This document shows, one piece after another, positions 4,509-33,548 of a DNA stretch of 37,788 nucleotides. Within the stretch, counting starts at the first letter, position 1. Each line of letters starts with the position of its first letter. The DNA is from a virus. The notes beneath the pieces are model-generated. The model was given only the letters and a program-made list of their open reading frames with translations, ran no database searches and was not told the DNA's origin. The translations under genes were made by a program, and so were the position numbers. The DNA is taken from IMG/VR virus record IMGVR_UViG_3300044911_003337, positions 1-37,788 of that record; one strand, 5' to 3'.

Positions 4509-4518
4509 TGTCGTCCCT

Positions 4519-19771: not shown

Positions 19772-19800
19772 TTGACCCGGTGCGGGGTCTCGACTACCAT
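19772..19800 (+). promoter_or_regulatory. Class 1 promoter (variant)
   Basis: TTGACC, a 17-bp spacer containing GGTGCGGGG, and TACCAT. The -10 is weaker than in its sisters. An ATG lies 6 nt after the -10. Confidence 0.7.
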
Positions 19801-19809
19801 AATGGCATG

Positions 19810-19826
19810 CCGATCAACGTGATCGG
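19810..19826 (+). repeat. 17-bp palindrome at transcription start, copy 1
   Basis: CCGATCA-ACG-TGATCGG, a perfect inverted repeat beginning about 10 nt after the -10. Copies also lie at 20572 and 21364. It could be an operator or a 5' mRNA hairpin. Confidence 0.85.
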
Positions 19827-19857
19827 TGACGCAAACGAACGAAAGGAACGGTGTGGT

Positions 19858-20349
19858 ATGGGTGACATGGCAAACATTTATCTCAAGAACTTCTCGACGA
19901 TGTTCTCGACATTCGTGGACGACCTCGTCCACATGGGGGCTGTGCTTCAGGCGGTCGGCGGGGGCGACAAGGCCAACGATGTGGTCGAGAGCATCGTCGA
20001 TAGATCGCCCTTTGCTATCAAGGTGAGGGGTTGGGAGAAGCAGGACCGTCTGGACCGAATGATGGCCGACGCCGGGTTTTCAATGGCCAACGTCAGCGAC
20101 CACGACGGGGGAGCACTGGTCATTCTGACGCGGGACGTGGTGTCATTCGAGCAACTGACCCGCAAGGTCGATGCGGTGATGGGCGAGGGGTGGCTGGGTC
20201 CGTACGAAGGCCCTGACGACAGTTGCAGCCACGAGCACGACTGTTGTGGATGCACTCGGCGTGGCGGTTGGACGCCGCTGAGCCCCATGGCATTCAATGG
20301 AGAACTACTGAGTTGTGTCTGGCGACAGACCTGGAGCCGGAACGTCTGA
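19858..20349 (+). CDS. Unknown accessory protein, Cys/His-rich near C-terminus
   Basis: A 163-aa product. The N-terminal half is helical (MANIYLKNFSTMFSTFVDDLVHMG), followed by RGWEKQDRLDRMMADAGF and a beta-rich part (GGALVILTRDVVSFEQL). Near the C-terminus is SCSHEHDCCGCTRRGGW, a possible metal-binding segment. I take ATG 19858, which has AAAGGA upstream. The frame is also open in phase from ATG 19807, which sits at the predicted transcription start and would add 17 residues. It is a single-gene cassette. Confidence 0.75.
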   Translation: MGDMANIYLKNFSTMFSTFVDDLVHMGAVLQAVGGGDKANDVVESIVDRSPFAIKVRGWEKQDRLDRMMADAGFSMANVSDHDGGALVILTRDVVSFEQLTRKVDAVMGEGWLGPYEGPDDSCSHEHDCCGCTRRGGWTPLSPMAFNGELLSCVWRQTWSRNV

Positions 20350-20356
20350 AAAACTC

Positions 20357-20394
20357 AACTCGGGCGGTGTGAAACACCGCCGTCCGAGTTTTTG
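20357..20394 (+). terminator. Strong intrinsic terminator
   Basis: AACTCGGGCGGTGT pairs with ACACCGCCGTCCGAGTT (a 2-nt bulge), GAA loop, then TTT. It follows the first cassette gene. Confidence 0.85.
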
Positions 20395-20409
20395 GTCGGG
20401 GATTTTAGA

Positions 20410-20455
20410 GAAAGGACGGTGTGGTATGGGATGCGATTGGGAACTGGAACGGTGA
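20410..20455 (+). pseudogene. Truncated duplicate of a gene start
   Basis: Positions 20410-20452 repeat 20603-20645 exactly (43 bp), including the ribosome-binding site, the ATG and the first 9 codons of the next gene. In this copy the frame reads MGCDWELER and then TGA (20426-20455). No promoter precedes it, so it looks like a relic of a tandem duplication. Confidence 0.8.
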
Positions 20456-20497
20456 GCCAGACCCGATGGATATGTGAGGTGGCATCGGGTCTGGCTC
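20454..20497 (+). repeat. AGACCCGAT box, full palindrome
   Basis: Copy 2. GAGCCAGACCCGAT is mirrored by ATCGGGTCTGGCTC, giving a 14-bp stem with a 16-nt loop. Confidence 0.9.
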
Positions 20498-20533
20498 GCC
20501 GTTAGGGTTCTGTTCTTTTCTTGGCATTGCGGG

Positions 20534-20562
20534 TTGACCCGGTGCGGGGAACAGTCTAGACT
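20534..20562 (+). promoter_or_regulatory. Class 1 promoter
   Basis: TTGACC, 17-bp spacer with GGTGCGGGG, TAGACT. GTTAGGGTTCTGTTCTTTT lies upstream of the -35. Confidence 0.85.
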
Positions 20563-20571
20563 ATTGGCATG

Positions 20572-20588
20572 CCGATCAGCGTGATCGG
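20572..20588 (+). repeat. 17-bp palindrome at transcription start, copy 2
   Basis: CCGATCA-GCG-TGATCGG, same arms and same distance from the -10 as copy 1. Confidence 0.85.
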
Positions 20589-20618
20589 TGACGCAAACGA
20601 ACGAAAGGACGGTGTGGT

Positions 20619-20849
20619 ATGGGATGCGATTGGGAACTGGAACGGCGTCGGGCCAGAGGCTACAGTGTGGACCAACTCAAGTTTGCCATTACCGACGCCC
20701 GCGAGGCGTGGGGATGTGCCGAGGAACTGGTCAAGGCCGGGCATCGGGCCGATCCTGGCAAGTATGCCGATCAGATTTCGGTGTACAATCAAGAGTTGGA
20801 GCGTCGTCTGCGTGGTGGTCGTCGGTGGTCTCGTCGAAAGGGAGTGTGA
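20619..20849 (+). CDS. Unknown small charged protein
   Basis: A 76-aa helical protein, MGCDWELERRRARGYSVDQL onwards, ending in a strongly basic tail (LERRLRGGRRWSRRKGV). AAAGGA precedes the ATG. It is the first gene of a two-gene cassette with the gene at 20853. The basic tail might bind nucleic acid. Its first 9 codons are duplicated upstream at 20426. Confidence 0.7.
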   Translation: MGCDWELERRRARGYSVDQLKFAITDAREAWGCAEELVKAGHRADPGKYADQISVYNQELERRLRGGRRWSRRKGV

Positions 20850-20852
20850 TCC

Positions 20853-21236
20853 GTGGCTGATATCTTTTACCTCAACAAGCGTTTTTGTGGGCAGCGGTTC
20901 TTTGCGGTCGAGGAGCGGGCGGCATTGCAGTGGGTCGATATCGACCACCGCGAGCGAATGATGCAGTTGAGCCCGGGCGTCTATCGCCTTCGCAACTGCA
21001 ACTCGACTGTCGGCTATGCCATTCCGGACTGGATGGTCGATGTTCGCGAAGAGGTGGTCGTCGGTGATGTGGTGGTGATAGAGTGGCAGGGCAACCAGTA
21101 CACCGGCAAGGTGACATACGCCACGATGGACGATCAGTATCACATCATCGAAATGACCGCGACCGAGACGGGCAAGTGCATGTATTGGAAGCAGAGGCAC
21201 GACGGGGGACGGCTGGTGGGCATCGTGAAGAACTGA
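20853..21236 (+). CDS. Unknown protein, second gene of cassette
   Basis: A 127-aa product with GTG start 3 nt after the previous stop and AAGGGAG upstream. The sequence is beta-rich: GVYRLRNCNSTVGYAIPDW, then EEVVVGDVVVIEWQGNQYTG, which suggests a small barrel or SH3-like fold, and TGKCMYWKQRHDGGRLVGIV at the end. No catalytic motif stands out. It is cotranslated with the basic protein upstream. Confidence 0.75.
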   Translation: MADIFYLNKRFCGQRFFAVEERAALQWVDIDHRERMMQLSPGVYRLRNCNSTVGYAIPDWMVDVREEVVVGDVVVIEWQGNQYTGKVTYATMDDQYHIIEMTATETGKCMYWKQRHDGGRLVGIVKN

Positions 21237-21237
21237 G

Positions 21238-21272
21238 AGACCAGGCCCCGGGTTATCCCGGGGTCTTTGGGC
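21238..21272 (+). terminator. Terminator-like hairpin
   Basis: CCCCGGG-TTAT-CCCGGGG with flanking AGACC/GGTCT, followed by TTT but no longer T-run. Confidence 0.65.
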
Positions 21273-21277
21273 CGAGG

Positions 21278-21287
21278 CAGACCCGAT
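21278..21287 (+). repeat. AGACCCGAT box, half site
   Basis: Copy 3, CAGACCCGAT, 48 nt before the next -35. Confidence 0.85.
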
Positions 21288-21325
21288 GTGCCGTTAGGTT
21301 TCTGTACTTTTCTTGACATTGCAGT

Positions 21326-21354
21326 TTGACTGGATGCGGGGAACAGTCTAGACT
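21326..21354 (+). promoter_or_regulatory. Class 1 promoter
   Basis: TTGACT, 17-bp spacer with GGATGCGGGG, TAGACT. GTTAGGTTTCTGTACTTT lies upstream. Confidence 0.85.
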
Positions 21355-21363
21355 AATGGCATG

Positions 21364-21380
21364 CCGATCAACGTGATCGG
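21364..21380 (+). repeat. 17-bp palindrome at transcription start, copy 3
   Basis: CCGATCA-ACG-TGATCGG, identical to copy 1 and equally placed. Confidence 0.85.
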
Positions 21381-21408
21381 TGGCACGCACACACAGGAGA
21401 ATCGTAGC

Positions 21409-21768
21409 ATGGAAACTTTGTTGATTACCGATCTTCCCCGTACCGTGGCAACTGGTGTGAAGAAGATCAGCCGCAAGCGAAGCTGCTGGGTAACCTCATT
21501 CACCCCTGGTCGCACCGCCCTTCTGGGGTGGGACGACGGCAGCAGGGACGAGTACCACGGCATCACCGACACCGGGGATGTGGTGGGGGTTGCGATGACC
21601 CTCGACCCCGACCGACTCGGGGACCCGTTCAAGCAGAGGTACATCATCGACGAACAGCCCCCGAACGTGGTGGCCGTGGTTCGCAGCGGCACCAGCCGGG
21701 GCAAGCCCGCCACGCCTTACGTGATGCTGATCAACATTCCAGTGCCGACCGGCACCGTGACCATCTGA
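21409..21768 (+). CDS. Unknown accessory protein
   Basis: A 119-aa product from ATG 21409, preceded by AGGAG. The frame is open in phase from ATG 21361 at the predicted transcription start, which would add MPINVIGGTHTQENRS. The protein is beta-rich (SCWVTSFTPGRTALLGWDD; PNVVAVVRSGTSRGKPATPY; YVMLINIPVP). No family recognised. It is a single-gene cassette with its own promoter and terminator. Confidence 0.75.
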   Translation: METLLITDLPRTVATGVKKISRKRSCWVTSFTPGRTALLGWDDGSRDEYHGITDTGDVVGVAMTLDPDRLGDPFKQRYIIDEQPPNVVAVVRSGTSRGKPATPYVMLINIPVPTGTVTI

Positions 21769-21773
21769 ACAAC

Positions 21774-21818
21774 ACAAGCCGCCAAGATCCCAGGGATAGC
21801 CCTGGGTGCGGCGGTTGT
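21774..21818 (+). terminator. Terminator-like hairpin
   Basis: Two stacked stems, ACAA-CCGCC with GGCGG-TTGT and an inner CCCAGGG-ATAG-CCCTGGG. Confidence 0.65.
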
Positions 21819-21819
21819 G

Positions 21820-21860
21820 GCAGACCCGATGTGGTGTGGGCATTGCATATCGGGTCTGGC
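21820..21860 (+). repeat. AGACCCGAT box, full palindrome
   Basis: Copy 4. GCAGACCCGAT and, 18 nt on, ATCGGGTCTGG. Confidence 0.9.
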
Positions 21861-21897
21861 CGCGCGTTAGGGGTTTGTTCTTTCTTGATATCGTCGG

Positions 21898-21926
21898 TTG
21901 ACTGGTTGCGGGTAGTGGTCTAAACT
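21898..21926 (+). promoter_or_regulatory. Class 1 promoter
   Basis: TTGACT, spacer GGTTGCGGGTAGTGGTC, TAAACT. It drives the ArdC gene. Confidence 0.9.
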
Positions 21927-21988
21927 AATGCATCAGCGTCGCTCACCCACGTAGGGTGGACGTAACCAGTTTGCAAGGAGATTTCGCA

Positions 21989-22891
21989 ATGAAGACTGAC
22001 GTGTATGGTATCGTGACCGAGAGAATCATGGCCCTGTTGGCTGCCGGAACTGTTCCCTGGGTCAAGAGTTGGACGAATGGGGCGGCGGTCGAGGCCCTGA
22101 GTCTGGCCACCGGCAAGGCCTACCGGGGCGTCAACCGGTGGCTGCTCAACCCCCACGTTCACGGCTACGGTTCCCCGTTGTGGGGGACGTTCAAGCAGAT
22201 TCAGGGCCGGGGATGGAATGTCCTGAAGGGCCAGAAGAGCATGCCCGCCGTGTTCTGGCGGTTCCTCGAACGCAAGAACTCCACCACGGGGCGGGTCGAT
22301 CAGGTGCCGTTGTTGAGATACTACAGCGTGTTCAATCTCGACCAGACAGATGCCCCAGACGATGCCCGCCGCTTGCCGGTTCCTCCGAGCGGCGGCAATC
22401 ACACCGAGCCGGATGCCGTGTTGGCCAACTATTTCCGTCGGGAAAACATCAAGGCAATCCACGGCGGAAACATCGCGGCATACGCACCGAGTACGGACTT
22501 GGTCATGATGCCTCACAGCGAGGCGTTTACCACGGCGGATGACTACATGCAGACCTTGGCCCACGAGGCTGTTCACAGCACCGGCCACCCCAGTCGGTTG
22601 AACCGACCTCTTTGTCCGCTGGTCATGAGTCGGACCAGTTACTCGACCGAGGAACTGATCGCCGAAGTCGGAGCGTGCATGGTGATGCAGGCATGCGGGC
22701 GAAACCCGGCATACGACAACTCGGCGGGGTACATCGCCGGGTGGCTGAAAGCCTTGGGCAACGATACCCGGATGGTGATTCGGGCAGCCAGCAAGGCCGA
22801 AGCCGCCAGCGAGTACATTCTCAAGGGTCCTCAGTGGGGTGCCACCACCGTCGAGGAGGCAACCGAAGAAGTGGCCAGCGAAGAAGTGTGA
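21989..22891 (+). CDS. ardC: ArdC-like antirestriction protein
   Basis: The 300-aa product has the ArdC layout. The N-terminal ssDNA-binding domain (DUF1738) shows VPWVKSW, YRGVNRWLL, YGSPLWGTFKQIQGRGW and VLKGQKS. The C-terminal zincin-like protease domain has HEAVHSTGH (about residues 192-200) and the downstream glutamates in EELIAEVGA. ArdC proteins protect incoming DNA from host restriction. AAGGAG precedes ATG 21989. It has its own class 1 promoter, consistent with early expression against host defence. The tail is acidic. Confidence 0.92.
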   Translation: MKTDVYGIVTERIMALLAAGTVPWVKSWTNGAAVEALSLATGKAYRGVNRWLLNPHVHGYGSPLWGTFKQIQGRGWNVLKGQKSMPAVFWRFLERKNSTTGRVDQVPLLRYYSVFNLDQTDAPDDARRLPVPPSGGNHTEPDAVLANYFRRENIKAIHGGNIAAYAPSTDLVMMPHSEAFTTADDYMQTLAHEAVHSTGHPSRLNRPLCPLVMSRTSYSTEELIAEVGACMVMQACGRNPAYDNSAGYIAGWLKALGNDTRMVIRAASKAEAASEYILKGPQWGATTVEEATEEVASEEV

Positions 22892-22897
22892 ATCGTC

Positions 22898-22934
22898 TGC
22901 CATCCGCCCCGGGATTTCCCGGGGTGGGTCGGCA
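22898..22934 (+). terminator. Terminator-like hairpin
   Basis: CCCCGGGA-TT-TCCCGGGG with outer TGCC/GGCA pairing; no clear T-run. Confidence 0.6.
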
Positions 22935-22938
22935 GGGC

Positions 22939-22948
22939 CAGACCCGAT
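22939..22948 (+). repeat. AGACCCGAT box, half site
   Basis: Copy 5, CAGACCCGAT, 56 nt before the next -35. Confidence 0.85.
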
Positions 22949-22994
22949 AATCTACCCAGTCTGTTAGGGTTTTGTTCTTTCTTGGTGTTGTTGT

Positions 22995-23023
22995 TTGACT
23001 GGTTGCGGGTAGTGGTCTAAACT
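22995..23023 (+). promoter_or_regulatory. Class 1 promoter
   Basis: TTGACT, spacer GGTTGCGGGTAGTGGTC, TAAACT, identical to the ArdC promoter. Confidence 0.9.
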
Positions 23024-23059
23024 AATGCGTCGGCGATTGAACGACACAAGGAGAATAGC

Positions 23060-23308
23060 ATGAAAGATAGGATTGTTGATTTCGAGACGCTCGCGTGTGA
23101 CCGCGACGGGGATCACGTTTCGTTAGAGGTTCGTTACATCGACCACATGGACGGCAACTGCACCCTGGTTCTGCGGGGCCGTGCTGCCGATGCCCCCGAA
23201 ACGCAGGAAATACAGGCGTATCTGCTGGACGCGTTTCCTGACGCCGAACTTGACGCCATTTATGAAATGGCCCGGGGTCTGCTGCGGCACGCCTACCCGG
23301 AGAAGTGA
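23060..23308 (+). CDS. Unknown small acidic protein
   Basis: An 82-aa product preceded by AAGGAG. The first half is beta-like (DHVSLEVRYIDHMDGNCTLV) and the second a helix pair (ETQEIQAYLLDAFPDAELDA). No known motif. It is the first gene of a two-gene cassette. Confidence 0.7.
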   Translation: MKDRIVDFETLACDRDGDHVSLEVRYIDHMDGNCTLVLRGRAADAPETQEIQAYLLDAFPDAELDAIYEMARGLLRHAYPEK

Positions 23309-23339
23309 ACCTGGACACACAGCAAACTGGGAGACTGGA

Positions 23340-23609
23340 ATGATTACTACGAGGCTTGCCGCCGCCGTGATGCCTGGGCCAAAGAGTCAGCGAGGCGACG
23401 ATCGCGAGAGGGTTCTGATTCGGGCGTGGCTGCGGCGACAGCAGCAGGGAATCCGCAACAAGATCCGGCGTGAGGGCGGCGTGTGCGAGGATGAGGTTCC
23501 CCATCGGTGGATGGCTCTGCATATGTTGCTGAGAAATCCACAGGCCCGCTGGTTGCGTAACTGGTACGCTGGCAGTCGGGCCATCGACCTGAAGAACGGG
23601 AGAATCTGA
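23340..23609 (+). CDS. Unknown small basic protein
   Basis: An 89-aa product from ATG 23340 with GGGAG upstream. It is Arg-rich (RVLIRAWLRRQQQGIRNKIR; ARWLRNWYAGSRAIDLKNG) and probably helical. The frame extends upstream without a better start. It shares the promoter at 22995 with the previous gene, and a terminator follows. No family recognised. Confidence 0.65.
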   Translation: MITTRLAAAVMPGPKSQRGDDRERVLIRAWLRRQQQGIRNKIRREGGVCEDEVPHRWMALHMLLRNPQARWLRNWYAGSRAIDLKNGRI

Positions 23610-23616
23610 CAACACG

Positions 23617-23639
23617 CAACCCAGGAATATCCTGGGTTG
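23617..23639 (+). terminator. Terminator-like hairpin
   Basis: Perfect 10-bp stem CAACCCAGGA-ATA-TCCTGGGTTG, then TCTGG. Confidence 0.7.
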
Positions 23640-23646
23640 TCTGGGC

Positions 23647-23656
23647 CAGACCCGAT
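23647..23656 (+). repeat. AGACCCGAT box, half site
   Basis: Copy 6, CAGACCCGAT, 47 nt before the next -35. Confidence 0.85.
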
Positions 23657-23693
23657 GCCGTTGTTAGGGTTTTGTTCTTTGTTGTGGTGGCGT

Positions 23694-23722
23694 TTGACTG
23701 GTTGCGGGTAGCAGTCTAGACT
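23694..23722 (+). promoter_or_regulatory. Class 1 promoter
   Basis: TTGACT, spacer GGTTGCGGGTAGCAGTC, TAGACT. Confidence 0.9.
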
Positions 23723-23765
23723 ACTGAGTCGTTGGCACATCGCACTCAAACAGGAGATACCGCAT

Positions 23766-24047
23766 ATGACCAAGGATGAAGTTGTGGCCGAATACGTGAA
23801 CCTGGTTATCCAGGTCACCACGGGCAAGACCCTGCTCACACCCGAAGTTGAGAAAAGGTTACAAGATTTGTGGACCACGTTCGAGGGTCATCTGCTGAAC
23901 AGGTGGCCCGAAATGGCTCTCTGCAATCGCCGAGAGTTGGTGGCGAATATCGTGGAAGATCGTGGGTGGAATACTTACGATCGCATGCAGGCTCTGTGGA
24001 GTACGGTCGGCATGTTGCAGGCCCACTTCGCCGCCTACGAACAGTGA
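23766..24047 (+). CDS. Unknown helical protein
   Basis: A 93-aa protein predicted to be almost entirely helical (VVAEYVNLVIQVTTGKTLL; EVEKRLQDLWTTFEGHLL; QALWSTVGMLQAHFAAYEQ). A GGAG precedes the ATG. It is a single-gene cassette with promoter at 23694 and terminator at 24056. Function unknown. Confidence 0.7.
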   Translation: MTKDEVVAEYVNLVIQVTTGKTLLTPEVEKRLQDLWTTFEGHLLNRWPEMALCNRRELVANIVEDRGWNTYDRMQALWSTVGMLQAHFAAYEQ

Positions 24048-24055
24048 CATACAGG

Positions 24056-24076
24056 CCCCATTGGTCCACAATGGGG
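24056..24076 (+). terminator. Terminator-like hairpin
   Basis: CCCCATTG-GTCCA-CAATGGGG, an 8-bp stem without a T-run. Confidence 0.6.
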
Positions 24077-24081
24077 TGCGG

Positions 24082-24091
24082 CAGACCCGAT
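24082..24091 (+). repeat. AGACCCGAT box, half site
   Basis: Copy 7, CAGACCCGAT, 93 nt before the next -35. Confidence 0.85.
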
Positions 24092-24174
24092 AGTGTGCTC
24101 ATGTGCGTGCGGGTGTATCCATATGATGCCGATATCGACCGCAAACTATCGCCCGAAATAATCGGCAATGCAGT

Positions 24175-24203
24175 TTGACCCCGTGCGGGTAGGAATCTAG
24201 GAT
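24175..24203 (+). promoter_or_regulatory. Class 1 promoter
   Basis: TTGACC, spacer CCGTGCGGGTAGGAATC, TAGGAT. A leader of about 95 nt follows before the gene. Confidence 0.85.
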
Positions 24204-24303
24204 ATGGGGTCAGCCGACGACACCCACCAAGCAACACGCGGCAATGTGCCTATGTGTGCTATTCGTGGGGTCTACCGGCGACACCCGTTTGGAGTATTGA
24301 CGT

Positions 24304-24786
24304 ATGGCTACCGCCACCAAGAAGACCACCACCAAGAAGACCGCCATTGTGAACCCCGCCGTGGTCGCCGGGCTCAACCCCGCCGTTGTGAACGAGGTCG
24401 TTCGCTCGCTGAGCCTGAGCGACCGGGCGGCACTGGCCAACGTGGCCAAGCCCAAGAACAGCGACTTGGCCCCGGGGATTTACCCGGTGGACGTCACGGT
24501 CCGCATCCGTGGAACGGTGAGGAAGGGCGAGGACTTCAAGGCCACCCAACCCGCCAGCCTCAACCCGTGGGCACTCTGCGGCTTCCTGTTGAGCAAGTTG
24601 AACGCGACCACGGCAGACGCCGTCGCGGCCCAGGTCGCCGAGGCGTTCAAGAGCGGGACGTTGAACAGCGACTTTGACGCGTACAAGAAGTACGCCGAGG
24701 AAGCGTTGGCCACCATGGCCGCCGCGACCGAGATCACCAAGAGCGGCATGACCACCGTGGCGGCGGCTATCGAGGTCGTCGGCTAA
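24304..24786 (+). CDS. Unknown protein with Lys/Thr-rich N-terminal tail
   Basis: A 160-aa product. Residues 1-14 are a K/T/A tail (MATATKKTTTKKTA) like the one in the gene at 35744. A helical stretch follows (VNEVVRSLSLSDRAALANVA), then a beta segment (GIYPVDVTVRIRGTVRKGEDF) and an Ala-rich helical C-terminus. The basic tail suggests binding to nucleic acid or to polyanions. GGAG lies 10 nt before the ATG. The long leader is unusual for these cassettes. Confidence 0.75.
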   Translation: MATATKKTTTKKTAIVNPAVVAGLNPAVVNEVVRSLSLSDRAALANVAKPKNSDLAPGIYPVDVTVRIRGTVRKGEDFKATQPASLNPWALCGFLLSKLNATTADAVAAQVAEAFKSGTLNSDFDAYKKYAEEALATMAAATEITKSGMTTVAAAIEVVG

Positions 24787-24818
24787 TCCCATTCTGACGA
24801 GGCCAGCAGGCCGAAACG

Positions 24819-24836
24819 CCCGGGGTTATCCCCGGG
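24819..24836 (+). terminator. Terminator-like hairpin
   Basis: CCCGGGG-TTAT-CCCCGGG, perfect 7-bp stem; no T-run. Confidence 0.6.
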
Positions 24837-24986
24837 TGTAAATGGGTACAAGGACGAGAAGGTACTCCGGATAACCTACTCCGGAGGTCGCACTTGTGCT
24901 AGATTGGGCGGTTTCGCGACCGTTCAATCTATTTGTGATTCTCCTGCGATGGCCACCACCCGGAATGTTCCGGGTGGTGTGTCTTT
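24837..24986 (+). ncRNA. Candidate structured RNA between two terminator hairpins
   Basis: This stretch has no credible ORF. A 13-bp stem (24900-24931; TAGATTGGGCGGT with ACCGTTCAATCTA, two G-U pairs, loop TTCGCG) follows a CTCCGG repeat and precedes a second hairpin (CACCACCCGGAA / TTCCGGGTGGTG) ending in TGTCTTT. No class 1 promoter lies in front, so any RNA would come by read-through from the gene at 24304 and processing. That is inference. Confidence 0.4.
24954..24986 (+). terminator. Intrinsic terminator
   Basis: CACCACCCGGAA-TG-TTCCGGGTGGTG, a perfect 12-bp stem, then TGTCTTT. Confidence 0.75.
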
Positions 24987-24992
24987 GACTGC

Positions 24993-25002
24993 CAGACCCG
25001 AT
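24993..25002 (+). repeat. AGACCCGAT box, half site
   Basis: Copy 8, CAGACCCGAT, 43 nt before the next -35. Confidence 0.85.
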
Positions 25003-25035
25003 AATACCCTGCACTTTCTTTGCCTGGAAAGTTGT

Positions 25036-25064
25036 TTGACTGGTTGCGGGTAGGAATCTAGAAT
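25036..25064 (+). promoter_or_regulatory. Class 1 promoter
   Basis: TTGACT, spacer GGTTGCGGGTAGGAATC, TAGAAT. Confidence 0.9.
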
Positions 25065-25092
25065 GTAGGGTAAGCAAACAGGAGAACGCACC

Positions 25093-25344
25093 ATGCAAGA
25101 AATGACTGACGTCACTATCTGTGGGATTCCTTGTACGGTTCCACAATCATGGGTGGATATGGTCGAGGCCTGTGCGGCCATGCCCCACCACACAGTCAAC
25201 CCGGATGGTTCCTATCGAACTCTTCGGAGATACGATTATGGCGTTCAATGCCGAGTTGGCTGCGAATGTACCGATTGCAGTCTGATTCGGCGGTACTACC
25301 AGTCCGTCGATGCCTATCGCAAAGATAATGGTTTGCCAGTTTGA
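25093..25344 (+). CDS. Unknown small Cys-rich protein
   Basis: An 83-aa product with GGAG before the ATG. It holds a cysteine cluster, CRVGCECTDC, after YGVQ, and two more cysteines near the start (ICGIPCTVP), so a small zinc-binding fold is possible. Its stop codon lies inside the -35 of the next promoter, so the two cassettes are fused without a terminator. Function unknown. Confidence 0.7.
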   Translation: MQEMTDVTICGIPCTVPQSWVDMVEACAAMPHHTVNPDGSYRTLRRYDYGVQCRVGCECTDCSLIRRYYQSVDAYRKDNGLPV

Positions 25345-25369
25345 CCCCGTGCGGGTAAGTGTTTAGAAT
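25341..25369 (+). promoter_or_regulatory. Class 1 promoter overlapping a stop codon
   Basis: TTGACC, spacer CCGTGCGGGTAAGTGTT, TAGAAT. The TGA of the previous gene (25342-25344) is part of the -35. Confidence 0.88.
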
Positions 25370-25396
25370 GTAGGGTACGCAAACAGGAGAACGAGA

Positions 25397-25783
25397 ATGG
25401 CTAGCACATCCAACAAGAAGGGTACGGTCACCCACACCATCGGCGAGTTTACCGCGAGCGTCGAGGTACTGTACGACGTCACGTTCGAGTATGACCCCGG
25501 CGTGTGGCGTACCGCCAATGGCGACGGTTGGCCGGGTACTCTGGACGTCGAGTTTGTCATCATCACCACTTCGGCCAGTGAGATTCTGGCGACCATCCGG
25601 GAGATCTGGGAGAACACCTACGGCGAGGATGGTCCGTCGTGCCCGCTGAGTCTGGCCGACGTCGTGGACCTGAAAGAGAACGCGTGGGCCGAACAGTTGG
25701 CCGAAGAGTTTGAACTCGATTCTGGCGACGAAGAGGACGACGACGCCCCCGAGCCCGACTATGAACCCCGAGAGGAGGATTGA
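25397..25783 (+). CDS. Unknown acidic protein
   Basis: A 128-aa product. The first 75 residues look beta-rich (TVTHTIGEFTASVEVLYDVT; GTLDVEFVIITTSASEI). The C-terminal 25 residues are almost all acidic (DSGDEEDDDAPEPDYEPREED), a DNA-mimic-like or disordered tail. GGAG precedes the ATG. A strong terminator follows. The acidic tail makes an inhibitor of a DNA-binding host protein conceivable, but nothing proves it. Confidence 0.75.
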   Translation: MASTSNKKGTVTHTIGEFTASVEVLYDVTFEYDPGVWRTANGDGWPGTLDVEFVIITTSASEILATIREIWENTYGEDGPSCPLSLADVVDLKENAWAEQLAEEFELDSGDEEDDDAPEPDYEPREED

Positions 25784-25789
25784 TGACCC

Positions 25790-25821
25790 AACCCGCGAGG
25801 AAATCTTCGCGGGTTTTGTTT
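25790..25821 (+). terminator. Intrinsic terminator
   Basis: AACCCGCGA pairs with TCGCGGGTT, then TTGTTT. Confidence 0.85.
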
Positions 25822-25828
25822 GGTCGGG

Positions 25829-25869
25829 CCAGACCCGATAATGCCCACTACCATACACATCGGGTCTGG
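25829..25869 (+). repeat. AGACCCGAT box, full palindrome
   Basis: Copy 9. CCAGACCCGAT is mirrored by ATCGGGTCTGG at 25859-25869. Confidence 0.9.
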
Positions 25870-25936
25870 CGGCGGTAGGGGTCTGTATGGTAGTCGGTAG
25901 GCTATTGTTCATTCTGGTATTTCGTGGGCCGATTGT

Positions 25937-25965
25937 TTGACCGGTTGCGGGTAGCAGTCTAGGAT
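25937..25965 (+). promoter_or_regulatory. Class 1 promoter for a leaderless gene
   Basis: TTGACC, spacer GGTTGCGGGTAGCAGTC, TAGGAT. The gene's ATG begins 6 nt after the -10. Confidence 0.9.
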
Positions 25966-25971
25966 TATGGC

Positions 25972-26763
25972 ATGGCGAACACCACCACCCAAGCGTATCT
26001 CACCCGTCCGCACCACCGACTTCTCTCGGATAGCGAAGCGAATACCAAGTTGGCCAAGAATCTGGCCCCCACTTGGGGTCTGAGTCTGGCCCAGCACAAC
26101 CTCTCGGGCTACAACGTCTGCCCCTATGCTACCCCGGGGTGCATTGCATCCTGCGTGGGCAAGTGCGGCATGGCCGGGGTATTCCCCAAGGTGATGCAGG
26201 CCCGCATTGCCAAGACCCGCCTGTTCTTTCACGACCGCCCGACTTTCCTTGGGCAACTGGTGAAGGAACTTCGCCAGAAGGATGCTCGCTGTGAGCGTTT
26301 GGGCGTTGTTGGGGTCGTCCGGCTCAACGTGTTCTCGGACCTGCCGTGGGAGAACTGGATCGACTTGTCCGCTTTCAAGAATCTTCGGTTCTATGACTAC
26401 ACCAAGAATCTGGGCCGGGCGTTCGCCGCTCTCGCCGACCTTCGGTACAGCAACTACCGGCTCTGCTACAGTGTCAACGAGGACAGCGATATGGACGATG
26501 TTCGGACTCTGCTCGCCAGAGGCGGGACGGCGGCTATCGTGCTGAATGTTCGGTACGTGAATGCCAACAACAAGGGTCCGATGCCCGATACCATCGACAA
26601 CATTCGGGTGATTGACGGCGACGTCAGCGACGACCGGGGTCTGGATCCCCGTGGTGTCTATGTCGGATTGCGGTTGAAGGGTCGAAAGAGTTTCCGGGCC
26701 GAAGCTCTGGCCACCGGATTCGCGTGCAACGTGCGAATCACGATCGACCGCAAGCAGGTCTAA
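25972..26763 (+). CDS. GP88-family phage protein
   Basis: The 263-aa product matches the phage gene product 88 domain: LSLAQHNLSGYNVCPYATPG, then a cysteine set (CIASCVGKCG), the segment MQARIAKTRLFFHDRPTFLG, VVRLNVFSDLPWE and FYDYTKN. The family is widespread in phages of many hosts; its biochemical role is unknown. The Cys cluster could bind metal or an iron-sulfur centre. The ATG sits 6 nt after the -10, so the mRNA is predicted to be leaderless. It is a single-gene cassette. Confidence 0.88.
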   Translation: MANTTTQAYLTRPHHRLLSDSEANTKLAKNLAPTWGLSLAQHNLSGYNVCPYATPGCIASCVGKCGMAGVFPKVMQARIAKTRLFFHDRPTFLGQLVKELRQKDARCERLGVVGVVRLNVFSDLPWENWIDLSAFKNLRFYDYTKNLGRAFAALADLRYSNYRLCYSVNEDSDMDDVRTLLARGGTAAIVLNVRYVNANNKGPMPDTIDNIRVIDGDVSDDRGLDPRGVYVGLRLKGRKSFRAEALATGFACNVRITIDRKQV

Positions 26764-26779
26764 CTTTGGGTGTTCGTTA

Positions 26780-26816
26780 GGGAGAGCCACCGGCGTTCGG
26801 TGGCCTCCCTTTCTTT
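26780..26816 (+). terminator. Intrinsic terminator
   Basis: GGGAGAGCCACCG pairs with CGGTGGCCTCCC (one bulge), then TTTCTTT. Confidence 0.85.
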
Positions 26817-26823
26817 GCTGGGC

Positions 26824-26833
26824 CAGACCCGAT
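26824..26833 (+). repeat. AGACCCGAT box, half site
   Basis: Copy 10, CAGACCCGAT, 41 nt before the next -35. Confidence 0.85.
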
Positions 26834-26864
26834 GCAAGGGTGGAAGAATCTTTGTGCAGAATGT

Positions 26865-26893
26865 TTGACCGGTTGCGGGTAGGTGTCTAGGAT
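26865..26893 (+). promoter_or_regulatory. Class 1 promoter for a leaderless gene
   Basis: TTGACC, spacer GGTTGCGGGTAGGTGTC, TAGGAT. The gene's ATG begins 6 nt after the -10. Confidence 0.9.
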
Positions 26894-26899
26894 TATGGC

Positions 26900-27109
26900 A
26901 TGAAGAACATCACATTCAAGTCCGACGACACGCCACTAAAGGTGGGAAATGACGTCCGCGTGGAAGTCGAGTTGCCTGATGGGTTGATGCTGGTCGTCGT
27001 ATTGACCCACGAAGGAATCATCACCGATCTATGGGAGAATGAGGAGCACATTGCTACCTCCTCTCGCATGTATAGTGAAACAGCCGACGACCTTTTGGAT
27101 AACCCTTGA
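26900..27109 (+). CDS. Unknown small acidic protein
   Basis: A 69-aa product, mostly beta-strand in look (DVRVEVELPDGLMLVVVLTH). The ATG lies 6 nt after the -10, so the message is predicted leaderless. Its stop codon overlaps the -35 of the next promoter. No known family. Confidence 0.7.
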   Translation: MKNITFKSDDTPLKVGNDVRVEVELPDGLMLVVVLTHEGIITDLWENEEHIATSSRMYSETADDLLDNP

Positions 27110-27134
27110 CTGCTTGCGGGTAGGCGTCTAGGAT
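27106..27134 (+). promoter_or_regulatory. Class 1 promoter overlapping a stop codon
   Basis: TTGACT, spacer GCTTGCGGGTAGGCGTC, TAGGAT. The preceding TGA (27107-27109) is inside the -35. Confidence 0.88.
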
Positions 27135-27161
27135 ATCGAGAGTCATCAAAGGAGAACGAAC

Positions 27162-27467
27162 GTGCCGAAGATTCAACTGTCGGATTTGCCTGTCATTCGC
27201 CTGGAGCACTACCGCCTGAGCGACATTCTGGACCCCCTTCCCACCGTCAAGGTGTGGTTCAAGGAGGAGGACTGGCGTGGGTTCACCTACGGCGACTGTC
27301 GCCATTCGCTCATCAATCCATCGGCGATTCTCGAAGGGCTCGACTGCGACCACACGTCCGACGACCTCTACCCCGTTCCCGAGGACGTTGACGAGGACGA
27401 GTGGCGGGCTTTCACCGGAATGCTCATGGAAATGGGCCACGAAGACCTGATCGACCTGGATATCTGA
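27162..27467 (+). CDS. Unknown acidic protein
   Basis: A 101-aa product with GTG start and AAAGGAG upstream. It is strongly acidic in the second half (DCDHTSDDLYPVPEDVDEDE; GHEDLIDLDI). The first half contains LPVIRLEHYRLSDILDPLP. No family recognised. A gap of 158 nt with leader-like features follows. Confidence 0.72.
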   Translation: MPKIQLSDLPVIRLEHYRLSDILDPLPTVKVWFKEEDWRGFTYGDCRHSLINPSAILEGLDCDHTSDDLYPVPEDVDEDEWRAFTGMLMEMGHEDLIDLDI

Positions 27468-27606
27468 TCGTCGTCGGCATACAATCTGTGTTCTGCCAGT
27501 CGCTCGAATGCCCGCCGGGACTACACCCTGAAACCTGTAAAGTCTCGGCAAATCTTTGTCTAGCGATTGGCGGTTTGTGAAGCCCTGCGAAATCTCGCGG
27601 GGTTTC
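27468..27606 (+). promoter_or_regulatory. Possible leader with attenuator-like hairpin
   Basis: CGGCATACAATC at 27476-27487 resembles the -10 of the class 2 promoters but lacks their GAAAC box. A hairpin (CCCTGCGA / TCGCGGGG, 27583-27602) followed by TTTCTT lies just before the GGGAGG of the gene at 27626. A hairpin ending before a ribosome-binding site resembles an attenuator, or it may simply end the upstream gene. Confidence 0.35.
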
Positions 27607-27625
27607 TTATTTGGGAGGTAAGCAA

Positions 27626-27901
27626 ATGCCGGTTCCGCAGCCCAACAAGACCATGATCCGAGGCGTCGTCGTCATTTCCAGGCAACTTCGCAATCTGGGC
27701 AACAGTTGGGTAGAGCCCGAAGAGATTGACGCAAACACCGCAACCGTCTGTGCTGATCTGGGTGCCGGTAAGTCGATCAAGTGCTCTCTGCGCCTCGAAG
27801 GAAAGACCATCGACAATCTTTCCATGGAAAACATCGACAATCTGATTCAACTGCTGACTGACGCCCGCGACCATTTCTCGAATGTGCATACTGTGATTTG
27901 A
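27626..27901 (+). CDS. Unknown accessory protein
   Basis: A 91-aa product from ATG 27626 with GGGAGG upstream (a start at 27611 is possible but precludes that site). It reads as beta-strands then a helix (MIRGVVVISRQLRNLGNSW; SIKCSLRLEGKTIDNLSMEN; IDNLIQLLTDARDHF). No motif recognised. A terminator and box follow. Confidence 0.7.
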   Translation: MPVPQPNKTMIRGVVVISRQLRNLGNSWVEPEEIDANTATVCADLGAGKSIKCSLRLEGKTIDNLSMENIDNLIQLLTDARDHFSNVHTVI

Positions 27902-27911
27902 CCGGCGCGGC

Positions 27912-27938
27912 AAATGCCTGGGATTTCCCGGGCATTTC
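27912..27938 (+). terminator. Intrinsic terminator
   Basis: AAATGCC-T-GGGA pairs with TCCC-GGGCATTT, then CTT. Confidence 0.75.
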
Positions 27939-27946
27939 TTGCGAGG

Positions 27947-27956
27947 CAGACCCGAT
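27947..27956 (+). repeat. AGACCCGAT box, half site
   Basis: Copy 11, CAGACCCGAT, 44 nt before the next -35. Confidence 0.85.
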
Positions 27957-27990
27957 AACTGTAGAAAACCAAAGAATCTTCTGCCAGAGC

Positions 27991-28019
27991 TTGACGGGCT
28001 GCGGGGGCGGGGCTAGAAT
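27991..28019 (+). promoter_or_regulatory. Class 1 promoter, later subtype
   Basis: TTGACG, spacer GGCTGCGGGGGCGGGGC, TAGAAT. From here on the first spacer bases are GGCTGCGGG rather than GGTTGCGGG. Confidence 0.85.
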
Positions 28020-28039
28020 CTGGTGTAAGGAGAACACCC

Positions 28040-28339
28040 ATGCTCAAGAATGCCGTCTATTTCGAGGTTCATTGGCGAATGGAAAACGAAGAAGGCGATG
28101 TAATGGAAGAGTGCAACGGCATCTGGCTCTCGCTGGCCAAGGCCCGCGATTGGGCACAAAATCTTCTGGTAAACGATCCTCTTCTTCGCCGAGATGAAGA
28201 AGGCCGCACCCACAAAATCAGGCGGTGTTTTGCCAACATTCGCCCGGTTGGTCGGACAGGGCGAGCCAAAAGGTGTATGGGTGGTGCGTGGTGGGGAACC
28301 GGCTCTCCTCGATTGCAGTGGGAAATCTTGGATTATTGA
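28040..28339 (+). CDS. Unknown small protein
   Basis: A 99-aa product with AAGGAG before the ATG. It begins AVYFEVHWRMENEEGDVMEE, reads as two strands and a helix (LAKARDWAQNLLVNDPLLRR), and ends with a Gly/Trp-rich basic part (RAKRCMGGAWWGTGSPRLQW). The next promoter begins 2 nt after the stop. No family recognised. Confidence 0.72.
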   Translation: MLKNAVYFEVHWRMENEEGDVMEECNGIWLSLAKARDWAQNLLVNDPLLRRDEEGRTHKIRRCFANIRPVGRTGRAKRCMGGAWWGTGSPRLQWEILDY

Positions 28340-28341
28340 AC

Positions 28342-28370
28342 TTGACAGGCTGCGGGTAGATGCCTAGAAT
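28342..28370 (+). promoter_or_regulatory. Class 1 promoter, later subtype
   Basis: TTGACA, spacer GGCTGCGGGTAGATGCC, TAGAAT. Confidence 0.9.
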
Positions 28371-28390
28371 CTACCACAAGGAGAACACCC

Positions 28391-28963
28391 ATGTCCGACA
28401 CACTCAAGAAACTTCAAGATTCGATCGTTGCCATTCAGAATCTCGAATGGGAGCGGACCATCACCCGCCGCGAGTATCCCCGCAACAACGAGATTGTGTT
28501 TTTGCGGCGTACTTTGGGCGAGCCCTACTTTGACCAAACCGACGACCGCTATAACCCCGGCTATGCCGAGGCGGCCCAATCATTTCGCAACCAGTTGGAA
28601 GATCTGGAGAAAAAGGCCCACGAGTGGTACAGTTTGGAGTTGGTTGACGAAGTGTGTAGCATGGGCAAACTCACAGATAACTTCTGGAGTGCCATGGACG
28701 AGCACTATACCAGCGTTCTGGGGCCTGGCGTGATAGATATCATTCGGTTGCGGGTCGAGGTCCAACTGCGGCGACAGAACGATATCAGCCGAATGGCGTG
28801 TTTGGACGAACACGATCTCCGAAGCGAATATGCGTCCTACATCTCCAAGCTCGACAGCCGAATGGCCGAGGCGGCTATTCAGATGGCCGAACTTGCAAAG
28901 GACATTGCCCTCAACCGAAAGGTCGAGTTGGTTCAAGGCCCCACCGTGCAGATTGCTATCTGA
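28391..28963 (+). CDS. Unknown helical protein
   Basis: A 190-aa charged protein with AAGGAG upstream. Long helices dominate (DTLKKLQDSIVAIQNLEWE; YAEAAQSFRNQLEDLEKKAH; SRMAEAAIQMAELAKDIALN), suggesting a coiled coil or helical bundle. A segment RYNPGYAEAA lies between. It has its own promoter and no terminator; the next promoter starts 2 nt after the stop. Function unknown. Confidence 0.75.
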   Translation: MSDTLKKLQDSIVAIQNLEWERTITRREYPRNNEIVFLRRTLGEPYFDQTDDRYNPGYAEAAQSFRNQLEDLEKKAHEWYSLELVDEVCSMGKLTDNFWSAMDEHYTSVLGPGVIDIIRLRVEVQLRRQNDISRMACLDEHDLRSEYASYISKLDSRMAEAAIQMAELAKDIALNRKVELVQGPTVQIAI

Positions 28964-28965
28964 AC

Positions 28966-28994
28966 TTGACGGGCTGCGGGTAGCGGCATAGAAT
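28966..28994 (+). promoter_or_regulatory. Hybrid class 1 / class 2 promoter
   Basis: TTGACG, spacer GGCTGCGGGTAGCGGCA, TAGAAT. The spacer ends in CGGCATAGAAT, the -10 context of class 2 promoters, while the -35 is class 1. Confidence 0.85.
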
Positions 28995-29002
28995 CCTGCA
29001 TC

Positions 29003-29167
29003 ATGCAAAACGACAAAAATTTCATGGTTGTGTTGGGTTGGCGCAACCAACGAATGGCCCTGAGAATGAGTGCCGACAGCAAGCCCGAAGTGCGCCGTCG
29101 TCTGGCCAAGTTGTTGCAGCGCACCAGATACGACCGAATCGTGAGTATTTGCCGATGCTCCTCTTGA
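29003..29167 (+). CDS. Small basic protein
   Basis: A 54-aa product, MQNDKNFMVVLGWRNQRMAL onwards, with an Arg-rich helix (RRRLAKLLQRTRYDRI) and a Cys pair near the end (ICRCSS). The ATG lies 8 nt after the -10, so it is nearly leaderless. The gene at 29155 starts inside its end, which suggests coupling. Confidence 0.65.
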   Translation: MQNDKNFMVVLGWRNQRMALRMSADSKPEVRRRLAKLLQRTRYDRIVSICRCSS

Positions 29168-29553
29168 CCTCGTCTGCCATGCTGTATACAGGAACAACCG
29201 GACAAAAGCCTGGTTGGTTTCACCTGCGATGCGACGAGGCCATAGGTGACTATTACCGATGGCTCTACTCACGAGCAGGACGAACCTGGTATTCGTGCCT
29301 GAACTCTGTTCACATCACGGTCATATCTGGTGAAAAGGATGCACGCATTGTGCAGCCAGAAGAGTTGACCCCTTGGGTTGGCGTCGGCATGCAGTTTGCC
29401 TATGAACCATTGGTCATGACAAATGGCCGGGCTTTCTGGGTTACTGTGCAATCCCCCGACATTCAGGACATGCGGCGATCGTTAGGGTTGCCCGCTCACC
29501 CGCATCTGCACATGACCCTGGGTAACATCAAGGGTAACAGACCAAAAATCTAG
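29155..29553 (+). CDS. 2H phosphoesterase-like protein, candidate anti-defence enzyme
   Basis: A 132-aa product with two HxT motifs in 2H phosphoesterase spacing: HITV at residues 53-56 and HMTL at 119-122. Between them are the family-like EELTPWVGVGMQFAYEPLVM and GRAFWVTVQSPDIQDMRRSL, then LGLPAHPHLHMTLGN. 2H enzymes cut or open cyclic phosphodiesters; the T4 member Acb1 destroys cyclic nucleotide signals of CBASS. This one may do that, or act on RNA ends like LigT. The substrate cannot be told from sequence. It lies 12 nt inside the end of the previous gene and close to ArdC. Confidence 0.72.
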   Translation: MLLLTSSAMLYTGTTGQKPGWFHLRCDEAIGDYYRWLYSRAGRTWYSCLNSVHITVISGEKDARIVQPEELTPWVGVGMQFAYEPLVMTNGRAFWVTVQSPDIQDMRRSLGLPAHPHLHMTLGNIKGNRPKI

Positions 29554-29564
29554 GTCTGTTGGGC

Positions 29565-29574
29565 CAGACCCGAT
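29565..29574 (+). repeat. AGACCCGAT box, half site
   Basis: Copy 12, CAGACCCGAT, 88 nt before the sigma gene's -35. A weak hairpin (CAGACC / GGTCTG, 29538-29558) precedes it. Confidence 0.85.
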
Positions 29575-29652
29575 ATTAGCCATGGTTGGAAATGATGAGA
29601 TCATACGAAACACTACCCATCATGATTGATGAATGTTTCTGGATTCATTGAC

Positions 29653-29681
29653 TTGACAGGCTGCGGGGTGTGGTCTAGGAT
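29653..29681 (+). promoter_or_regulatory. Class 1 promoter of the sigma factor gene
   Basis: TTGACA, spacer GGCTGCGGGGTGTGGTC, TAGGAT. It is the last class 1 promoter in the window. Confidence 0.88.
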
Positions 29682-29726: not shown

Positions 29727-30269
29727 ATGACCAACGAGCAACTGTTTGCCGCCAATCGCTTTGAGGAACTTTACACCGCGAATCAGGGCCTCATCCTCGA
29801 CCGCATCAACAAGATGCCCAACCACCTGCGGGACGAGGGCTTGGGCAACATCGCCTTCATGCGAGCCATTCGCAGCTACCGGGCCGATGCCGGTATTCGT
29901 TTCAGCACGTATCTCGTGACCGTGCTGCTCAACGAGATTCGCATGCTCCTGCGAGCCGAGAGCAACCGCACCCGCAACACCCGGCAGTACGCCGAGGGCC
30001 ACCACGAAAACGACTTTGTGACCACCGAACAGCCCGCCGACGTCGAGGAGCGATCCAACCAGACGTCCGAGCTTCGCCGGGTGCTGAACAGCGATCTGCT
30101 CAACGCCACCGAGAAGCGCATCATCTCGCTTCGGTTCGGTCTGGATGGTTCTCGCATGACCCTCGAAGAGGTGAGCCGCGAGCTTTCCATTCCCCGTAGC
30201 AGCGTGGCTGCCATGCAGCAGCGGGCAATGGACAAGCTGCGTACCGCCGTCGTGTCCAGCGTCGGCTGA
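29727..30269 (+). CDS. RNA polymerase sigma factor (sigma70 family)
   Basis: A 180-aa protein. Region 2 spans about residues 9-75, including the 2.3/2.4-like AGIRFSTYLVTVLLNEIRML. Region 4 lies about 115-177, with LNATEKRIISLRFGLDG and the helix-turn-helix TLEEVSRELSIPRSSVAAMQ. Region 3 is short and there is no region 1.1, as in alternative or phage sigma factors such as T4 gp55. AGAAGGAAATG precedes the start. It is driven by a class 1 promoter, and every promoter after it is class 2, so it is the prime candidate for recognising them. Confidence 0.92.
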   Translation: MTNEQLFAANRFEELYTANQGLILDRINKMPNHLRDEGLGNIAFMRAIRSYRADAGIRFSTYLVTVLLNEIRMLLRAESNRTRNTRQYAEGHHENDFVTTEQPADVEERSNQTSELRRVLNSDLLNATEKRIISLRFGLDGSRMTLEEVSRELSIPRSSVAAMQQRAMDKLRTAVVSSVG

Positions 30270-30310: not shown

Positions 30311-30814
30311 ATGGCCAGCATCTTGCTTCCCCGATATTCGCCCATGAAATGGGATGACCACTTCTTCGGCACAATCTTCATGAGCATCTTCTTTGTCGGA
30401 ATCTTCTTTGGCGATCCGACTGCCAACGCCATCGAGAATCCCAGGTTCGAGAAGATTCTCGACGCCATCGAACAGGTGGAAAGCAGCGGGCGAGGAAAGA
30501 ACACCCCGGACGGCGACAACGGCAAGGCTATCGGGCCATTTCAGATTCACATGGCCTACTGGAGGGACGCCTGCCAGTACGATATCACGCTGGCCGAGTC
30601 GAACTACGAAAGGTGCCGGGAACCCGACTATGCCCGCCGTGTTGTTCGGGCCTATCTGCGCCGCTATGCCAAGGGAAATCTTGAGAATCCCGAAGTGTTG
30701 GCGCGGATCCACAACGGCGGGGGCGGTATTATGAGCAAGAATCGCAATGGCCGGGCGTGGCGCAACACCACCGAATACTGGAACAAGGTCAAGCAAGAAC
30801 TTGAGGAGAACTGA
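30311..30814 (+). CDS. Secreted i-type (destabilase-like) lysozyme
   Basis: The 167-aa product has a hydrophobic segment (FFGTIFMSIFFVGIFFG, about residues 18-34) ending in a likely signal cleavage site after TANA. The mature part resembles invertebrate-type lysozyme: FEKILDAIEQVESSG with the predicted catalytic Glu57, then KAIGPFQIHMAYWRDA, YERCREPDYARRVVRAYLRR and LARIHNGGGG. Such enzymes split peptidoglycan glycan strands, so it may act in lysis or entry. No holin is seen nearby. AAAGGAG precedes the start; the gene lies 41 nt after sigma without a visible promoter. Confidence 0.85.
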   Translation: MASILLPRYSPMKWDDHFFGTIFMSIFFVGIFFGDPTANAIENPRFEKILDAIEQVESSGRGKNTPDGDNGKAIGPFQIHMAYWRDACQYDITLAESNYERCREPDYARRVVRAYLRRYAKGNLENPEVLARIHNGGGGIMSKNRNGRAWRNTTEYWNKVKQELEEN

Positions 30815-33346: not shown

Positions 33347-33468
33347 TGCATAGTAAGTTAATGACAGACTAGGACCGAGAATAGGGTTCAATCCCCAGCG
33401 TCTGCTGTAATGGCGGGATGGTGTATGTAACACGCGGTCCAGTGTGGGGTCGAGTCCCACCTATGCAA
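33347..33468 (+). other. Interrupted tRNA-like element 2
   Basis: TGCATAG (33347) pairs perfectly with CTATGCA (33461-33467). TA follows as positions 8-9, then a D-arm-like AGTT...GACT. GGACC (33372-33376) pairs with GGTCC (33436-33440), as an anticodon stem. The T-arm is GTGGG-GTCGAGT-CCCAC. The loop between the anticodon strands is 59 nt and contains another T-arm-like GGGTTCAATCCC. No U33-anticodon can be placed, so decoding ability is doubtful. Confidence 0.4.
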
Positions 33469-33475
33469 TTGTGGC

Positions 33476-33548
33476 GCACTCGTAGCTCAGTTGGTAGAGC
33501 AGCGGACTTTTAATCCGCTGGCCGTGGGTTCGAGTCCCACCGGGTGCA
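33476..33548 (+). tRNA. tRNA-Lys(TTT)
   Basis: A full cloverleaf: acceptor GCACTCG with CGGGTGC (one G-U), D-arm GCTC-AGTTGGTA-GAGC, anticodon arm GCGGA-CTTTTAA-TCCGC with anticodon TTT, T-arm GTGGG-TTCGAGT-CCCAC and discriminator A. CCA is not encoded. The next gene begins 2 nt downstream. Confidence 0.96.

Follow-up and report, generated by a model that had tools for sequence, protein, structure and literature searches.

The window, i.e. the whole stretch of viral DNA analysed here (37,788 nucleotides), encodes a small protein with two HxT motifs. 2H enzymes open cyclic phosphates by means of two histidines and without metal, which raises the question as to whether this protein is such an enzyme and, if so, which cyclic phosphate it would act on. 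The initial annotation had read it as a compact 2H phosphoesterase and proposed a role against CBASS or other signalling, in the manner of T4 Acb1. The features that bear on the question are the following:

29155..29553 (+): predicted 2H phosphoesterase gene, 132 aa, with H53xT55 and H119xT121 (PF22547, E 8.7e-6; phrog_12204, E 7e-10)
29311..29322 (+): HITV, predicted first catalytic motif, residues 53-56 (His invariant in 24 aligned sequences)
29509..29520 (+): HMTL, predicted second catalytic motif, residues 119-122 (His invariant in 24 aligned sequences)
29003..29167 (+): 54-aa ORF 5' of the 2H gene, overlapping it by 13 bases (no Pfam match)
28966..28994 (+): promoter-like box TTGACG-N17-TAGAAT, one of an array of 14 (consensus match only)

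The 132-aa frame is open from 29155 to 29553 and carries HITV and HMTL at residues 53 and 119, 66 residues apart, just as the annotation had described. Among shuffles of the protein's own residues, two HxS/T motifs 60-80 apart arise in 2.5%, and 0.06% have two HxT-hydrophobic motifs; such a pair is present in 1 of the 201 stop-to-stop frames of at least 80 codons in the window, which is the 2H frame itself. The motif pair thus exceeds chance, and its reality is settled by the invariance of both histidines across the 24 aligned sequences. The frame stays open 5' as far as a TTG at 29038, which would give an alternative form of 171 aa; the ATG at 29155 agrees with the start of the relatives.

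The phage itself can be placed from other genes. Since the window DNA polymerase is 46-49% identical to those of T4-like cyanophages and a RegA gene is present (PF01818), the window comes from a T4-superfamily phage, of which it is a fragment. Around the 2H gene is a plus-strand accessory region in which 14 promoter-like boxes (TTGACNGGNTGCGGG...TAGNAT) are spread over 19772-29681 (+), mostly one per small plus-strand gene and 5' of it; the plus strand has 14 of the 15 matches to this pattern, for a chance expectation of 2.1 on both strands. The start codon of the 54-aa ORF is 8 nt past the -10 box, and this ORF is likely the first gene of the same small transcript as the 2H gene. With a strong promoter-like box at 28966, it is plausible that the 2H gene is an early gene. 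The ArdC gene with which it had been grouped was confirmed (21956-22891; PF08401 and PF18818), but is about 6 kb away and has its own box. Several cassettes of the region (25937-25974, 26865-26902, 28966-29005 and 19772-21363, all +) have an ATG just 6-8 nt past the -10 box, which would make leaderless transcripts, e.g. for the GP88-family gene at 25972-26763 (+; PF17338, phrog_1617), a family known mostly from mycobacteriophages and Pelagibacter phages; in other cassettes an AGGAG site is clear. The 2H gene is directly followed by genes for a sigma-70-like factor (29727-30269, +; PF04542/PF04545) and then a destabilase-type lysozyme (30311-30814, +; PF05497). Elsewhere in the window, an intein with a LAGLIDADG domain (PF14528, PF14890) interrupts the ribonucleotide reductase gene (1236-4550, -), and a tRNA-Lys(UUU) at 33476-33548 (+) is preceded by a tRNA-like stretch (33411-33548 region, +) with a sub-threshold match to YrlA (Y RNA-like; 23.9 vs 69 bits).

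Which family does the protein belong to? Against Pfam PF22547, "2H-SAK" (Swiss Army Knife 2H phosphoesterase domain), it scores 26.4 bits (E 8.7e-6), 0.6 bits short of the curated cut-off of 27 bits, and it matches phrog_12204, a family of unknown function, with E 7.4e-10. PF22547 is matched by 7/7 members of our first alignment, and the relatives Kaldavass, XbC2, BF and GAP32 pass the cut-off. Most close relatives of the window protein also score low, and it therefore looks like a side branch of 2H-SAK. Searching by tblastn retrieved gp116 of Bacillus phage G (30% identity, E 2e-6) and, with weaker scores, proteins of other jumbo phages; with gp116 as query, 46 records were obtained, mostly RaK2-like phages together with Atu_ph07, Phosso and a Vibrio phage. 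Relatives thus occur in the jumbo phages G, RaK2, GAP32, 121Q and Atu_ph07, and also in planctomycetes, one of them encoded on chromosome CP043547; a profile search found the family in 3/294 and 7/398 sampled planctomycete genomes, the two samples overlapping. Across 24 aligned sequences H53, H119, W21 and R107 never vary; position 121 is S/T in all, and position 55 is S/T in all except one, which has C. Judging from these comparisons, the window protein is a divergent member of an already known phage 2H-SAK group, a subfamily whose members come mostly from giant phages, a few planctomycete bacteria carrying it as well. Other searches with the window protein gave no direct relatives in IMG/VR (peptide patterns), chance matches only among PDB sequences, no match in PADLOC or NCBIfam, and no LigT-type Pfam profile at E up to 1; a weak PF13563 match (E 0.056) was seen for one homologue only (L041). 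No plasmid copy was found with gp116 as query. In the LR756511 homologue (L003:2923-3330), an in-frame TAG falls within a stretch that is otherwise well conserved, as would fit TAG recoding in that huge phage. Two 2H proteins, Phosso gene 101 (L015:7953-8435) and T4 57B (L008:3953-4411), are publicly annotated as 'RNA ligase', a misleading name.

Structure prediction is consistent with this assignment. AlphaFold models were obtained for the window protein (13 sequences; pLDDT 75, pTM 0.70) and for a planctomycete homologue (18 sequences; pLDDT 80, pTM 0.75). In Foldseek searches of the PDB, the leading matches of the window protein are 2H enzymes, with weak E-values (best 0.034, Acb1, rank 1). 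VIA-align gives Z-scores of 6.5 for CNPase, 6.3 for MHV ns2, 6.2 for Acb1, 5.9 for Usb1 and 5.5 for Appr>p phosphodiesterase, and for the planctomycete homologue the top rows are again 2H enzymes (Z 6.3 to about 4), with other folds at 2.7 or less; all these values lie below 8, so that match strength is moderate. A two-lobed 2H fold, the structural check that the initial annotation had named, is present in the models and is supported for both proteins. Family, histidine conservation and predicted fold agree on a 2H phosphoesterase, the phosphoesterase activity itself being predicted. The modelled fold does not pick a substrate, given the tie between CNPase, ns2, Acb1, Usb1 and the Appr>p phosphodiesterase.

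The gene neighbours of the relatives point, indirectly, towards RNA repair and NAD+/ADP-ribose chemistry. The planctomycete G083 homologue (138 aa, L045:10234-10650; L043/L045) shares 4 bases, ATGA, with an overlapping KptA/Tpt1 gene (PF01885, E 1.5e-50), and upstream are genes for an ADP-ribosylglycohydrolase, an isochorismatase-type (nicotinamidase-like) protein, a microbial PARG, NrtR, NAD synthase, a PRPP synthetase-like protein and NAPRTase. This NAD salvage/ADP-ribose island spans L045:744-11661 and ends with 2H, KptA and a nucleoside deoxyribosyltransferase-like gene. In the phages GAP32, BF, XbC2 and Munch, the order is RNA ligase, DUF2828-type gene and 2H, followed, as far as read, by a poly(A) polymerase/CCA-type enzyme, a Nudix protein and a macro or ADP-ribose protein; in 121Q and RaK2 this order is retained in part, from 2H onward. 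In phage G, a macro gene lies 3 kb from the 2H gene, and KptA is elsewhere in the genome. Across six lineages, the distance from 2H to the nearest macro gene is shorter than with random placement (Fisher p about 0.001), a test that leaves out lineages lacking a macro match (LR745206, Phosso, Munch, G002 and G003). Inherited gene order could explain part of this clustering, and the RaK2-like order represents one lineage, for which shared descent is an explanation too. Adjacency to KptA is not a general rule, as 80 viral KptA loci have no 2H-family gene within 6 kb (0/80); at one locus (L074), KptA has a LigT-like ORF about 1.5 kb away, which is unrelated. Around six more planctomycete homologues, no repair genes were recognised by eye in wider contexts, where antisense ORFs in GC-rich DNA made gene picking unreliable. 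We dropped the presence of an RNA ligase in 11/12 bacterial or phage genomes as evidence, for want of a background rate. Neither RNA ligase nor KptA was found in the window, which is a genome fragment.

From these neighbours we infer, at roughly even odds (about 50%), that the substrate of this lid-less 2H-SAK enzyme is the cyclic phosphate of a broken RNA end or of ADP-ribose. By analogy with 2H chemistry, H53 and H119 would serve as general acid and base without metal, as described for Acb1 (PMC9117128), and the motif threonines would hold the phosphate while the cyclic phosphate is opened. One candidate substrate is a 2',3'-cyclic phosphate on a broken RNA (tRNA) end; the other is ADP-ribose 1'',2''-cyclic phosphate, the product of 2'-phosphate removal by KptA/Tpt1. 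During infection, the enzyme might prepare RNA that host ribotoxins have cleaved so that it can be repaired, or remove ADP-ribose by-products. Aravind and co-workers predict that jumbo-phage 2H proteins act on the 2',3'-cyclic phosphates that arise from tRNA cleavage and in NAD-dependent RNA processing (PMC7824862, PMC9503650), a reading that the neighbours described above favour. For other solo phage 2H domains, RNases or signal nucleotides were put forward as alternatives (PMC5512222); the domains in that study are not located with RNA ligases, which counts against the proposed reading, as do the lack of such neighbours at several planctomycete homologues, the 80 viral KptA loci and the absence of RNA ligase and KptA from the window fragment. 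Large phages often carry solo 2H enzymes. This family has a clear anatomy, one of its bacterial copies overlaps KptA, and the protein is small and easy to produce.

Does the protein instead degrade a cyclic (oligo)nucleotide immune signal, with an effect like that of Acb1 but from another 2H branch? We consider this unlikely, yet deserving of attention. Acb1, itself a 2H enzyme, shares the tetrad (H44/T46/H113/T115) and ranks among the best structural matches of the window protein and the homologue (Foldseek rank 1, E 0.034; Z 6.2); 2H enzymes have repeatedly been adapted against immune nucleotides (PMC11410667), and the accessory region is shared with ArdC. However, the structural match is a tie with CNPase, ns2, Usb1 and the Appr>p phosphodiesterase, and the solo copies on bacterial chromosomes speak for a reaction of housekeeping type. 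In addition, Acb1 has aromatic residues Y12, W74, F107 and W147, and its C-terminal lid (145-152) closes over cGAMP with E141 and W147 (PMC9117128). The window protein has 13 residues after H119 vs 39 after H113 in T4 Acb1; its homologues stop about as early, a few unaligned tails aside, and no counterpart of the lid, E141 or W147 is present. The Acb1 profile PF23474, which matches T4 57B with E 2.7e-60, does not match the window protein at E up to 1, BLAST gives no alignment with T4 57B, and hhalign (17 vs 6 sequences) gives no colinear alignment, the one match being a 34-column, cross-lobe pairing of the second with the first lobe at 41% probability. We therefore reject identity with Acb1: HxT motifs and compact size are insufficient for naming an Acb1. 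The anti-CBASS role suggested on that basis is not supported, while a broader role against signalling is conceivable. Trimming of RNA or ADP-ribose ends is more likely than destruction of a CBASS signal in the Acb1 manner. A narrower version, for which we hold out less hope, is that the lid-less large-phage branch destroys a non-Acb1 immune signal, for example an NAD-derived or ADP-ribose-based cyclic one; if true, this would tie counter-defence to the ADP-ribose chemistry of the neighbours.

A Usb1-like role as RNase or exonuclease, trimming RNA and leaving a cyclic phosphate as part of host takeover, seems quite improbable: it has been proposed for solo phage 2H domains (PMC5512222) and the structural matches include Usb1 (Z 5.3-5.9), but there it is tied with other 2H enzymes, and no neighbour lends support. 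Very doubtful is a decayed, non-catalytic protein that binds only nucleotide or RNA, as might be read from the long branch in the family tree, the score below the Pfam cut-off and the loss of an arginine after the first motif (S58; R in most relatives), since the frame is intact and the four tetrad residues are kept together with invariant W21 and R107.

How, then, does a putative enzyme that opens cyclic phosphates on RNA or ADP-ribose compare with known systems? With LigT/ThpR, CNPase, Trl1-type and plant Appr>p cyclic phosphodiesterases it shares the predicted fold class and the proposed chemistry, whereas there is no detected sequence similarity and the proteins or domains of known structure are bigger, at about 165-220 aa. 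Acb1 (T4 57B) has the same 2H fold, the HxT/HxT tetrad, a similar motif spacing (69 vs 66 here) and a compact size, but differs in its E141/W147 lid and in its own set of conserved residues, those of the window protein being others. PF22547 and phrog_12204 agree with the protein in sequence, in both histidine motifs and in length, from which it departs by its long branch and a score below the Pfam cut-off. The proteins gp116, RaK2 ORF028, GAP32_178, BF_0183 and 121Q gp531 are homologous to it over most of the length and have the same invariant residues; gp116 and the RaK2-like proteins reside in phages of 340-500 kb, where several have RNA-repair and macro genes close by, whereas the window gene belongs to a T4-superfamily phage.
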